From assembly GCA_027604005.1 (NCBI GenBank), contig JADGJT010000291.1, positions 1 through 30,071 on the forward strand: 30,071 nucleotides of DNA. Reading direction: 5' to 3'. Numbering within the stretch: the stretch's first letter is position 1; every line of letters starts with the position of its first letter. The position numbers and the translations under genes were made by a program. Positions 6,207-18,442 of the stretch are shown in pieces. The notes below the pieces were generated by a model, which was not told where the DNA came from, did not search any database, and saw only the letters and a program-made list of their open reading frames with translations. Source of the stretch: Dinochytrium kinnereticum (Eukaryota; Chytridiomycota; Chytridiomycetes; Chytridiales; Chytridiaceae).

Positions 6207-7201
6207 TTAAAGAAAATTCTCTTTTCGCAGCCAATTTAGGCCCATGTATGCTGTTTGGACAGATGGTAACGTCAGTTCACCTCTTAAGATGATGGCGTCT
6301 AATTCTTCCATGGATATATTTGACTCAACACTGATCATTTCTGTGGCAGTGGTCAACTCCAAAGTCTGACTTCATAGGCAAACGATGACCCACCTTCCGC
6401 ATCTCTTGGCCGAGGATTTGAATCGGCTATGGGATCCAGCACTAAGTAAGGCAGGAACTTATTCGTGCACCATTTCAACTCCATAATTCCATCCGTACCC
6501 TCAGGCAACAATGGAATAAGCTTTCCATTTGCAAGTCTAGCTTCCTCCGAGAGTTCCTCCCTCGCGGTGTCCTCTCGCGTGCGGTGCTTTTTGGGATCAA
6601 AGCCCCCTGCCGGAAAGCTATATCTAACTCCATTGATTCCTTGCATATACTCGAGGATGAGAGTGGTTGTCTTGGTCGCGGTGGAAAAAGGGAACATGAC
6701 GCAAAAAGTTGGGTTTGGAACGTCATGACCAACGATATCCCTATATGTGGGAACCAGGGTTAATTGATTGCATGAGATGGAGGGTGGTGCCCACCATTCA
6801 ACAGGTCCGTTGGGGAACTGGACGGTTCGCTGCCACATTCTCAAAAACCTCTTGTAGCCGACCTTATCCTCTTTCACCAGAGGAAACCCTTCGCTTAAAC
6901 GAAGCATTCGTCTGAGATCTGGCTGGTCTTTTTCCATATTGTATTTTTGACACCGAGCAAAGCCGAAAGTTATCCAATTTTTTTTGGGAAAAGCCGTGAG
7001 AGCAGTTTTGCCCTCAGCGATGGTAAGTCCTTGCAAAAAATATGTTCTTCTTTGTCGGGAACCATCACGAAGGCAAGATCATTCCTCTGTTGAAGGGATC
7101 CAGGAAGCACCTCAGACAGACTAAGGAGGACATTTGGCACCTAATAATTCAAAAAGAAAGCTGTGAGTTTCTGGAGACGAAAAAGTCATTCCCTTAGACA
7201 T
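6207..7201 (-). CDS. Nudix hydrolase domain protein
   Basis: Main exon 7029-6394 and terminal exon 6340-6207 are joined by a 53-nt intron. An optional first exon 7201-7141 (MSKGMTFSSPETHS...) joins in frame across a 111-nt intron ending TTTTTTGCAAG. The long model gives 276 residues. If translation begins at the internal ATG 6937 (MEKDQPDLRR) the product is 225 residues. The Nudix core reads YSFPAGGFDP with the helix REELSEEA at about residues 177-184 of the long form, keeping the REUxEE metal-binding half. The upstream Glu of the GX5EX7 half is not at its usual spacing. The C-terminus (MEELDAIILRGEL...) resembles the terminal helix of nucleoside-diphosphate-sugar hydrolases. Nudix enzymes cleave nucleoside diphosphates linked to another moiety; the substrate cannot be deduced here. 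The 5' end is the weakest part of the model. Confidence 0.8.
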
Positions 7202-7985: not shown

Positions 7986-9336
7986 TTAATTTGACTTGCA
8001 GGTGTATCTCACAAACGCGTTGCACTTGGAACCTGGTCTTAGCTCCCAATGATGTGGCTCGGAGGTAACTGTCCTGACAAAACCATTGCGAGCAGCATTA
8101 TCGCGAAGCCAAGCAAAAACGGCAGGGTTGACCACGTTAAGGTCCAGCGCGATCCCGTTTTGGTGATTGCTAAAGCCGGGGCTGTATAATACGTTGTTAG
8201 TTTTGTTTTTTTAAATTAATCCTTTCCGTATTACCGCAAGAAAGAAAAGAAAAAGAAAAAAAAAAGTCATAAACTTACCGAGCTGCTAAGTTCCCATTAT
8301 TGCAAGACTTTGTCTGAAAGCATCTGAATAATTCAGCTTGCTTCGCATTCGTCCTGAAGCCAGAGTTGAGCTGCAGCCTCATACCATCATTTTGGGCGTT
8401 TTGTTTCATCTTTAAAAACGCACATGCTGTCTCCACTACCACGTCTTTACCATCGATCTTCCCAAAAACAGTAAGGTGTTTCGCAAGTCATCAATCACTT
8501 AACAAACCTTGGTGCATTGCTTGCCTCCGATAGGAACTCCATTTTGAAAAGCTTGTCCGCAGGGAGAGACGTTATCGAAATTGCAGCTGCTACCTGAAGC
8601 GATCTTATTCGCGGCGGTCTTGGATGCGCCAGCAACTTTTGGCGTGCTTTTACTGGTAGCCGCGACCTTGGCAACAGCTTTACGTGCAGGAGCAGCATTT
8701 GCAGCAGCTTTGAGTTCTTCTTGAGCTTGCCGTACTTTGAGACAGTCGTTGGTGATCTCTACATCCTTGCCGTTAATCTGGAATAAGAATTGTGTGAGAA
8801 AGCGGCGAATAGTAGGAGGGAAGACATTATCGTAGTTACCTTAGTGCATTCTCTGCCATTCAAGCACGGAAAAAGATTTTTGAAACCACAGTTGATTTTA
8901 GGTCCAACCAGCAGCGATCCAGGAGAGACGGCTTTTGGCGATGGAGCAGGTGACACCACAGTTACTTTGGAAGCCTCCAACTGGGCTTCTTTGACCTTAA
9001 CGCAATCATTTGTGATCTCTACGTCTTTGCCGTTGATCTGCCGCGATGTGGTAATTAGGCCCTTCATTCGGGCTACAGTGCTAGAAAAACTGAGACGACG
9101 AAGTTTACCTTTGCGCACTCCTTGTTATCAAGACAAGGAAATAGATCCTTAAAGCCACAATTGATCTTGGGTCCAACTATTTTGGGTCCAACGATCTTGG
9201 GACCAACAATCAACGGGCCGACGATCTTGGGACCAACAGTGGTGGTGGAGGCATACTGAGGTGCTGCTTGACCGGCATCCAGCAGGAGTAGAGTAGGGAC
9301 CAGTGCCGCCGTCAACAGATGATACTTGAAGATCAT
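7986..9336 (-). CDS. Secreted M15-type peptidoglycan peptidase with duplicated Cys modules
   Basis: Five exons on the minus strand: 9336-9109, 9037-8840, 8777-8508, 8457-8279 and 8181-7986, giving 356 residues. The N-terminus is a signal peptide (basic start, LLTAALVPTLLLL core, cleavage likely after GQA). Five VGPKI repeats follow, then modules of the form CGFK.LFPCL..EC.KINGKDVEITNDC. The catalytic domain (about 233-356) carries SGFRT (264-268), PGFSNHQNGIALDL with likely zinc ligands H298 and D305, and EPHH (E333, H336), matching the ExxH of D,D-/L,D-peptidases (VanY/Ply500-like, M15). Such enzymes cut peptidoglycan cross-bridge or stem peptides and are mostly bacterial or phage. A secreted fungal copy would act on bacteria outside the cell. 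Introns 1-3 are phase 0 and fall at the same place, between Lys and I(N/D)GKD, so the modules look like exon duplications. Introns are 50-97 nt. Confidence 0.87.
9163..9237 (-). repeat. Five tandem 15-bp units encoding VGPKI
   Basis: Five exact-length 15-bp units lie head to tail in exon 1 of the M15 peptidase, each encoding Val-Gly-Pro-(Lys/Leu)-Ile. Units differ by a few silent or conservative bases; the second (9208-9222) gives Leu for Lys. The unit nearest the cysteine module runs straight into INCGFK, and a single VGPKINC also precedes the second module. The array most likely forms an extended spacer after the signal peptide. Confidence 0.9.
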
Positions 9337-9832
9337 GTTTGTGCCGGTAGTAAATGTTGATGGGATAGCTATGAAGGCCCATTCCTTTATAGCCTGTTCC
9401 CATTCCTTTCTAGCCCGTTGAACACACCGCAAGCCGCACGGCGTCCACCATCATGATCACACTTCGGACTTTTTTTCTGAACACACATTTAGATTCCTGA
9501 AGATTTGATAAGCAACTCTTGCCTAAAAAGACGTGCTACAGCTGTACATGCGTACCCAGCTGATCCCATTTGTGAGTGGTTCTTACATGCTGCATGTCCA
9601 ACATGGAAAGCACTCTGCATGTATCAGACTGCAGCTATTTGCTTGCTGCTCTCTGTATGTATTGAAAAGCACCTTACAAGGTGTCCCTGAGTTGAGCGGG
9701 TGCTGTTCTGGAGAAAAACATCAACTCTGGCCCGTTGCCCTTGAGTGTATTCCTTGATGAGATGGACGAAATGTCTTCTTTTTGCAATAAGAAAAAAATC
9801 AATGTGATTTGTCCTAAAATCATTAATTATAG
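9337..9832. promoter_or_regulatory. Divergent upstream region of M15 peptidase and OTC genes
   Basis: About 500 bp separate the ATG of the minus-strand peptidase from the ATG of the plus-strand ornithine carbamoyltransferase, so both promoters must lie here or overlap the leaders. Open frames crossing it on both strands have no family resemblance. No specific binding site was identified. Designation as promoter follows from the gene layout. Confidence 0.5.
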
Positions 9833-15746: not shown

Positions 15747-16455
15747 ACGACTGGAGCGGCTTGCAGTCCACACGCAGTACCCATACACCAGCCTTTGCCT
15801 CAATAAATTTATTATATGGAGAAAGTAGAGACCGAGCCGTTTCCGTCGTGCCTCAGCACCAGCGATCCTTGACTTGCATTGGAGTGTTGGATGCTTTGAC
15901 GGATCCATGACGATCCAATCACGTCCAAGAACAAATTTATTCCTTTCCTGAAGGGGGGCGGGGACCGCCGCCAGCAAGCTGAAAATCCGACTCTGGTCTT
16001 ATCCTGCTCGTCTCTGCGGACGCATCGTTTTCCTGCTTCCCCTTCATCAGGCACTGCTGGCCTATTACATTGCATTGGCTGACTGGAAGACACTATTCCG
16101 TCTTCCCGCCTCGCCCTCACCACCGCCACCTACGCATCCCTCAGCCATCCGTCATCCATTGCTCTCCGCTCTGTATCAGCGGCCATCTCTTTATCTCCAG
16201 CTCGGTGCACCAGCACGGGCGGGCACGCAGCAGCGGCAGCAGCAGTGGTGCCTCAGAGGTGGTGGTGGTGGTTGTGCAATCTGTGAACGCCTGCCTGTGT
16301 TTGAAGGCAAAAATTGATTCCAGAGCCGCTTGAAACGACAACGAGCGTCTGGCTGGGCATCACAGGAGAGGACAGCCTCAGCACCAACATCACCGCCTTC
16401 ACCCTCTTCTCCCGTCTACCCCTTCCACTCCCTGCATTGTATCCCTGCTGCTGCC
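15747..16455. other. Upstream region of MUB1-like gene
   Basis: About 700 bp with no gene of its own. The frame upstream of the MUB1 ATG is open back to about 16330 but has no earlier ATG, so it is read as leader. A short GGT repeat occurs at about 16257-16272. Other open frames on both strands are shadows or low complexity. Confidence 0.5.
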
Positions 16456-18442
16456 ATGGTCAGAGAGGACAACCACTGCAACCCGGCGGCGCTTCAGCCG
16501 TCCATCACCATTGCCCACTCAAACTACGACAAGCGGGCCCTCACCTCGACAGACCCAATGGCTCTGGCTGCCTCTCTGCAGAACCTGAGCTATCTCACCC
16601 ATGTGCAGGGCCAGACTATGGCCCCCATCATGGCAGCCGACGGCGGGATTTGCATCCTTGTCGACCTTATCAAGTCGGTTGGGAGGAGGATCAGAGGTCT
16701 GGAAGGACCGGCTGATCCAAGGGCAGAATGGCATCGGGTTGAGACAGAAGAGCAGGCATTGGAGAGGATGAAGCGGAGGGCTGGAATCCTCGACATTGAC
16801 AGACTCACTCATACCTATGCCTTGACCACCTTGAACAACCTGGCAATGAAGGGGAGCCGGTTGGTCAAGGAGCGGATGGTGGATGCCGGAGTTGTTCCAG
16901 CACTGGTTGAGCTACTAGAAGATGCTGTTGGTATCATGGAGACGGTGAGGAAGTTGCAGACTGATGCTGTTGAAAAGAAGGCAGCATCAGCTTCTGCCGC
17001 CTCCGAGATGCCCATGGAAGTGACGGATAAGGAGATCCCATCGTCCCCTTGTAGCGATAGTGGTCCCACCGTCTCGACCAACCCAGCATCATCGCTTCCC
17101 TCAACGACCCCTGCGCCCTTAGCCGTTGAGACCTCCTCCTCCTCCGACGCTGGCGCCTCCTCGGCGGCCGCATCGTCCTTTGCTCCTCTCGATCTCACCC
17201 AGCCTCCGATCCATCAGATTCCCACACCCACCGAAGCTCCATCGAACCTTCCCACCCCTCAGGTAGCGCAGTCTGCCTCCGTCACCGTCTCCGCCATTGG
17301 ACAGTATATCCCTTCAAACCCTACTCCGACAATGGCCGACACCATCATCTCCGCCCCAACCTCCGACGACGCCGTCTCCAACCCTCTAATTACAGAGACG
17401 ACGACACCTACGGACGAAGCCTCCACTGCCACAGTCCCTACCGTAGGGCGAGACGGCACTCAAAAGTCATCCTCCTCCCGATCAAAGCCATCTCTTCCAA
17501 TCCTCCCTGGAATCCAGTCAGCCTCCACATATGTCGAGGCTTCCATGGTCTCCGATGTTCTTGGCAGGTCCCAGGACATCACCTTGGCCGCCCAGCTTAT
17601 CGCCGCTCTCTCAAAGTATCCTTCCATCAGGCCATACCTCCACGCTGATTTCTACCGGACAGGCCGGGAACCGAAGGCTGGAGAGAGAGAGGATGAGTTG
17701 TTTGAGAGGATTCCTTATCGGAGAAGTGCGTTCCAACTTCTGGAAGTCTTTTCGGGGGTCTCCTCTGTCCTTCCCGAGGCAAGAGTTTGGGCCGTCGTAG
17801 CTATGAGGAATGCTTTCAGAAGGGATCATGTTCAGGCTGGGACTCCAGCGAGCGGGGCATCTTCCTCTGCTGGTCAGCTCAGGCGGTGTGGAGACGTGAG
17901 ATGCGTTAAGTGGGAGACCAGCTTCAAGGAGTATAGCAAGTGCAGCAGATGCCGTAGAGTGGCTTACTGCAGGTATGGCTTTTCGTTTGTTTTTGTTTTG
18001 TTTTGTTCATGTATTCGTTGAGGACCTAGCCACTCTTGTATCGCTTCCTTACATTTTCAACAATAGCAAAACTTGTCAGCGCCGTGCATGGACTCTTCAT
18101 AAAAACTGGTGCCTCAAGTTTGGCGAAACGAGCAGTAGCTGCAGCGGCGCCAACCGTAACGTCTCCACTTCAACTAGTCAGTCCAGCAACTCTATTCCTT
18201 CAACCGCTAACGACCCTCACCATCATCGCCACCAACATCGCTTCCGTCACCAACACCGTCACCCCGCCACGCCATCGGCTGTTGATACCACCGCTATTGA
18301 AAATGCCTCGGAAGAGCCGTTAACTCCTATGGAGGAGATGGCTCCTCGAAGGGCGATGAGGAGGCCAAGCCGAGGCATGTTTGCTGCAACGGCCGTTCGG
18401 GAGGAATCAGTAGATCCTATGGATGTTGAGGAGGATATTTAA
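16456..18442 (+). CDS. MUB1: MYND zinc-finger protein, Mub1/samB family
   Basis: Two exons, 16456-17972 and 18067-18442, flank a 94-nt intron; 630 residues. The N-terminus (NPAALQPSITIAHSNYDKRA, then LQNLSYLTHV and ADGGICILVDLIKS) matches the start of fungal MUB1/samB proteins, which form armadillo-like helices. The segment VPALVELLEDAV continues that pattern. A Ser/Thr/Pro/Ala-rich linker covers about residues 175-350. Before the finger, VLPEARVWAVVAMRNAFRRD corresponds to the conserved WAGVVMRNACRKD block. The MYND finger spans about 478-521 with Cys pairs CGDVRC, CSRC, C..TC and the final H...C, and is split by the intron after the YC. In yeast Mub1 partners the Ubr2 ubiquitin ligase in Rpn4 turnover; in Aspergillus samB affects polarity and septation. 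The C-terminal tail is His-rich and then acidic. Confidence 0.93.

Follow-up and report, generated by a model that had tools for sequence, protein, structure and literature searches.

A predicted secreted VanY-type peptidase of the chytrid Dinochytrium kinnereticum whose N-terminal modules appear to be shortened copies of its own lobe

Secreted wall hydrolases of bacterial type are already known in eukaryotes. The ascidian protein rusticalin is described as a predicted secreted protein with two cysteine-rich repeats, called beta-defensin-like, and an M15-like domain nearest to the L-Ala-D-Glu peptidase of phage A500; its gene contains introns (PMC6339383). A wider survey gives 382 proteins with the rusticalin-type repeat, in which Pro29, Gly30 and Pro31 are conserved; 301 are fungal, including a Neocallimastix protein (A0A1Y2FMX2) that combines GH25 and M15 (PF08291) domains with paired cysteine-rich repeats (PMC7379824). 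In Trichomonas vaginalis, laterally acquired NlpC/P60 hydrolases are reported to be active and to help the parasite outcompete bacteria (PMC6299479). Here we describe a gene of the aquatic chytrid fungus Dinochytrium kinnereticum, a member of the Chytridiaceae, located on the minus strand at positions 7986–9336 of a 30,071-nt stretch of contig JADGJT010000291.1 (the window). With a probability of about 0.7, we read its product as a secreted zinc D,D-/L,D-peptidase of VanY (M15B) type from a eukaryotic-type group, with N-terminal modules derived by tandem copying of its own lobe.

The bacterial counterparts of the catalytic domain are the VanY/LdcB-type carboxypeptidases (MEROPS M15B, PF02557; VanYB, 5zhf/5hnm), with which it has in common the catalytic fold and the order SGFR, SxHxxGxAxD, ExxH. 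The Dinochytrium gene differs from these in having introns, extra N-lobe and C-terminal cysteine pairs, EPHH in place of ExWH, and the N-terminal modules. Among the eukaryotic systems, the protein resembles rusticalin in being a predicted secreted eukaryotic protein with two cysteine-rich repeats before an M15-like domain and in having introns, but its peptidase is of VanY type, its modules match its own lobe and it contains neither PGP nor CC. The comparison with rusticalin-type repeats covered the Pro-Gly-Pro and CC residues, and on the absence of these such repeats were rejected. Like the Neocallimastix protein, it is fungal, has a predicted signal peptide and joins cysteine repeats to a bacterial-kind M15 domain; that protein differs in its M15 family (PF08291), in having one intron and apparently in its repeat type. 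The likeness to the Trichomonas enzymes is that of a laterally acquired peptidoglycan hydrolase in a eukaryote. The NlpC/P60 peptidase fold is unrelated to M15, and we know of no self-derived modules in the Trichomonas hydrolases.

The gene (Table 1) was proposed in a first-pass annotation of the sequence to comprise five exons, and splicing at GT/AG introns indeed gives 356 residues in frame. The protein begins with a putative signal peptide (MIFKYHLLTAALVPTLLLLDAGQA, judged by eye), in keeping with the secretion suggested at that time, and continues with VGPKI repeats and modules 1 and 2; a linker rich in Ala and Lys then leads to the catalytic domain. Introns 1, 2 and 3 are all in phase 0, making exons 2 (198 nt) and 3 (270 nt) symmetric, and each follows the Lys codon that precedes I(N/D)GKDV: intron 1 does so in module 1, intron 2 in module 2 and intron 3 in the catalytic lobe. 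Intron 4 is in phase 2 and interrupts the catalytic domain. The four cysteines of each segment (C60, C68, C74 and C88 in module 1; C126, C134, C140 and C154 in module 2; C207, C215, C230 and C244 in the catalytic N-lobe) are presumably paired in disulfides. The public NCBI model, which is the best database match (P0001, HDU67_005333, 341 aa), splices elsewhere, retaining eight intron 1 residues (GLITTSRQ) within module 1 and losing VGPKINCGFKNLFPCLNGRECTK, the first half of module 2. An unbroken module in the Chytridium lagenaria protein P0002, KINCGFRN...ECVM-INGK...ITNDC (KINCGFRNLVPCGDNKECVM-INGKSIEITNDC), supports the five-exon model, in which the three copies run parallel and are split by an intron at one shared point.

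The catalytic domain contains SGFR (R267), SNHQNGIALD (H298, D305) and EPHH (E333, H336) and matches the Pfam VanY family (PF02557) with an E-value of 5.1e-14 and 52.6 bits against a gathering cut-off of 25, which confirms the M15 identity read from SGFRT, SNHQNGIALD and EPHH in the first-pass annotation. Three families had been named there as candidates: PF02557 scores above its cut-off, while PF13539 reaches 17.4 bits, under its cut-off, and PF08291 is absent from the domain matches and was not found in the genome. Motif and family-profile alignment to VanYB puts H298, D305 and H336 at the zinc-ligand positions of the VanY family and E333 at that of the catalytic Glu. The predicted fold of the domain is that of Hedgehog/DD-peptidases, nearest to VanYB. 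An assignment to the M15C L-Ala-D-Glu endolysins (Ply500) was rejected, the closest similarity being to VanY rather than to Ply500/LysB4; a CBM77 match (E 0.037, under cut-off) was disregarded, and PHROG matches show M15 kinship only. Together, the motifs and profile match support an M15 peptidase of VanY (M15B) type, the bacterial wall-trimming kind, which may act as a D,D- or an L,D-carboxypeptidase or as an endopeptidase.

Modules 1 and 2 match the start of the protein's own catalytic domain (CNFDNVSPC...KQCTK and, across intron 3, IDGKDVVVETAC...KMKQ) with scores of 72 and 86, respectively, where the maxima from 5000 shuffles each are 48 and 50. The modules and the N-lobe have the same order of four cysteines and the same intron point, and both modules lack nine residues that the N-lobe has between its second and third cysteines. 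None of the active-site residues is kept in the modules; what is kept is the cysteine-rich strand/helix lobe. The similarity extends to the lobes of other, distant proteins, for which 10 of 12 comparisons gave scores equalled by 2–31 of 2000 shuffles. The modules appear to have arisen via exon duplication, as abridged copies of the N-terminal lobe of the peptidase itself. Such duplication had been read in the first-pass annotation from the three phase-0 introns at the same module point, and this part stands; the host-evolved scaffold also envisaged there does not, as the match to the peptidase's own lobe rules out an independent source. Where the partners of secreted bacterial-type wall hydrolases are borrowed domains in the relatives seen, here they appear to be partial copies of the protein's own fold, with the intron point as a record of their origin.

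Related proteins bear on the history of the lobe. P0013, P0025, P0028 and P0124 also have the four-cysteine lobe; the tree places them apart from the chytrids and the module search did not recover them, which makes the lobe seem of greater age than the modules. In the module-free C. lagenaria protein P0015, homology starts exactly at IGGISVVVETAC and is preceded by a stretch unlike the lobe; in P0007 of the same species the lobe start is present and the eight residues just before the IGGISVVVETAC point are missing, whereas P0024 has those eight. From these protein models, an exon beginning at the same K/I site may be suggested, although a short deletion in P0007 would look alike.

The two modules share 32 of 41 residues, and 22 of these 32 are encoded by different codons. 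They differ at 40 nucleotides, 27 of which are third codon positions, with pN of 0.125 and synonymous sites saturated, which rules out a recent duplication. When 40 differences were placed at random, 32 residues were never retained in 20 000 simulations, which kept 15.9 on average and 24 at most. The third-position bias and the retention of residues beyond the simulation indicate selection on the modules as protein-coding sequence; they are thus old and maintained by selection. These values, and the conservation of the modules in C. lagenaria, make an artefact of the gene model, or decay of the copies, an extremely improbable explanation of the modules, one to which the loss of half of module 2 from the automatic model might otherwise point.

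A module search and structure prediction had both been suggested in the first-pass annotation. The module region (residues 25–165) was searched against 5.8 billion proteins by a word-based method that sees only proteins of 0.55–1.75 times the query length sharing short words; among 2519 candidates scored, it found D. kinnereticum P0001 and C. lagenaria P0002 and P0003 and no other protein at E ≤ 1e-3. The gene is single-copy in the 22.4-Mb D. kinnereticum genome by exon-level search, and C. lagenaria has at least five entries among the matches listed (P0002, P0003, P0007, P0015, P0024). In the AlphaFold model of C. lagenaria P0002, module 2 (residues 42–84) forms three strands and a helix, with block pLDDT of 62–78, in the same β-β-β-α order as the catalytic lobe of that protein (residues 111–161). 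For P0001, the predicted structure gives the module pieces a helix and two strands, with low confidence.

A careful tree was built on 140 columns and 80 rows, the latter a subset of the 105 rows in a quick tree. It unites the five chytrid rows (100/94), with one protein as their neighbour (98/90). The chytrids lie inside a 27-row set (89/87, not starred) together with two Willaertia rows, one cercozoan, two EukProt entries and 17 proteins without organism name; the nearest bacterial sets are Myxococcota, Lujinxingiaceae and Planctomycetota. This set, for which we coin the name eukaryotic-type VanY group, is marked by two cysteine pairs: of its 27 rows, 25 have the pair in the N-lobe and 24 the one at the C-terminus. 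The Dinochytrium protein has both, and the chytrid rows missing a pair are truncated or apparently misjoined models. Neither pair occurs in the 66 rows classed as bacterial, which comprise 56 genome-collection loci and 10 proteins, eight of them without organism label. One EukProt entry outside the set, P0021, has the C-terminal pair only. Named fungi among the best 120 of 164 matches are Dinochytrium and C. lagenaria only, and the 31 loci on viral contigs reach 41% identity at best, compared with up to 57% for bacterial loci. We take the catalytic domain to belong to the eukaryotic-type group and to come ultimately from bacteria; this shared extra-cysteine type connects protists, Willaertia among them, to aquatic chytrids.

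The transferred bacterial domain of the first-pass annotation is too simple a reading. A bacterial lytic domain moved straight into the chytrid and fused there with a cysteine-rich scaffold of unrelated host origin would agree with the nearest named prokaryotic matches (about 50% identity, in the same three bacterial groups as in the tree), and the approximately unbiased (AU) test does not reject a tree in which the chytrids are forced to join the Myxococcota-like set (p-AU 0.122). We nevertheless consider direct transfer improbable: the constrained tree is 29.2 log units worse, the chytrids group with Willaertia and the cercozoan, their two cysteine pairs are common to other eukaryotes and missing from all rows classed as bacterial, and the supposed scaffold matches the peptidase's own lobe and was recovered by the module-region search from no protein outside the two chytrids. 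An old bacteria-to-eukaryote transfer, followed by spread or patchy retention, fits better than a private bacterium-to-chytrid transfer.

We propose that a piece comprising the end of one exon, the K/I intron and the start of the next exon was duplicated in tandem in the common ancestor of Dinochytrium and Chytridium, and that the copies then shed a loop of about nine residues to become the two N-terminal modules. This would be a small case of a transferred enzyme gaining a new architecture in a fungus. The catalytic domain would work outside the cell, trimming or cutting the stem peptides of bacterial peptidoglycan, with the modules serving as wall-binding or spacing units. In relatives, the VanY-type domain is accompanied by SH3_3, GH19 and GH24 domains; kinship, fold and these companions predict extracellular hydrolysis of peptidoglycan stem peptides. 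Judged from sequence, action on bacterial walls is likely and a role in killing or feeding on bacteria plausible. D. kinnereticum has been described as a dinoflagellate parasite. We offer more tentatively a fuller version, in which the N-lobe and its intron were copied as symmetric exons to give stand-alone, cysteine-braced modules that act in wall binding or as an in-cis brake and could vary by exon skipping, with a Trp-to-His change at the active site in the same lineage. A related idea casts the modules as a pro-region or a regulator in cis, with the copies competing with the true lobe and the enzyme inactive until they are cleaved off. It would suit copies of a core fold element that precede the domain and are separated from it by a long Ala/Lys-rich linker; the true lobe, however, has a nine-residue loop that the modules do not share, and we think this idea unlikely.

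Several observations weigh against a secreted wall peptidase with self-copied modules. The public gene model differs from the five-exon model, and the linkers and modules of P0001 are poorly modelled. Two of the 12 comparisons with distant lobes are not significant (module 1 against the cercozoan protein, 455 of 2000 shuffles; module 1 against P0025, 238 of 2000). Introns 1–3 show no sequence similarity when compared with each other, and it is from their position and phase that a common origin is read. Exon-level searches of the genome, of limited sensitivity, found no GH24, GH25, NlpC/P60, Amidase_2 or M15_3, which weighs against a large bacteriolytic set. Finally, EPHH replaces ExWH, a form present in 2 of 144 retrieved proteins, and activity may be altered as a consequence. 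With this Trp-to-His replacement beside a zinc ligand, the catalytic domain could have ceased to be a wall enzyme, having another substrate or acting as a Hedgehog-like binding protein, which seems doubtful to us.

Table 1. Features of the peptidase gene and of its surroundings (window positions)
Feature	Position	Strand	Content
Exon 1	9109..9336	minus	putative signal peptide, VGPKI repeats, module 1 first half (CGFKDLFPCLDNKECAK)
15-bp tandem repeat	9163-9237		within exon 1
Intron 1	9038..9108	minus	phase 0, 71 nt
Exon 2	8840..9037	minus	symmetric 0-0; module 1 second half (INGKDVEITNDC...), linker, module 2 first half (CGFKNLFPCLNGRECTK)
Intron 2	8778..8839	minus	phase 0, 62 nt
Exon 3	8508..8777	minus	symmetric 0-0; module 2 second half, Ala/Lys-rich linker, catalytic N-lobe first half (CNFDNVSPCGQAFQNG...CTK)
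Intron 3	8458..8507	minus	phase 0, 50 nt
Exon 4	8279..8457	minus	IDGKDVVVETAC..., SGFRT (R267), Q272
Intron 4	8182..8278	minus	phase 2, 97 nt
Exon 5	7986..8181	minus	SNHQNGIALD (H298, D305), EPHH (E333, H336), C-terminal cysteine pair, stop
Open frame	6353-7078	minus	FPAGGFDPKKHRTREDTAREELSEEARL
21-bp repeat	9378-9419		two copies, just upstream of start codon
Two overlapping frames	16318-18442	plus	Cys/His stretch

Our literature search found no paper on the Dinochytrium gene or on self-copied M15 lobes; none of the queries named self-copied lobes, and coverage of subscription journals was thin. CPGP occurs in 5 of the 144 retrieved proteins and our own CC-ending pattern in 12, not including the Dinochytrium protein; some of the matches to this looser pattern are probably bacterial. 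The CPGP carriers are the VanY-type proteins P0021, P0022, P0048, P0089 and P0127, the last also with a GH24 domain; a rusticalin-like repeat may thus accompany M15 domains of the VanY branch as well. GH19 chitinase-type and VanY-type domains occur together in P0013 and P0124, the latter a EukProt entry.

The gene adjoins one for ornithine carbamoyltransferase, followed by PIP5K and calpain/C2 genes; these neighbours, all with split frames, are ordinary genes of a eukaryote, making bacterial contamination very unlikely. An Rfam search of the window gave no match. The open frame on the minus strand has no Pfam match at 1e-3, and we take its FPAGGFDPKKHRTREDTAREELSEEARL stretch to resemble a Nudix box. 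Of the two overlapping frames on the plus strand, the first has no Pfam match; by reading, their Cys/His stretch resembles a split MYND zinc finger.
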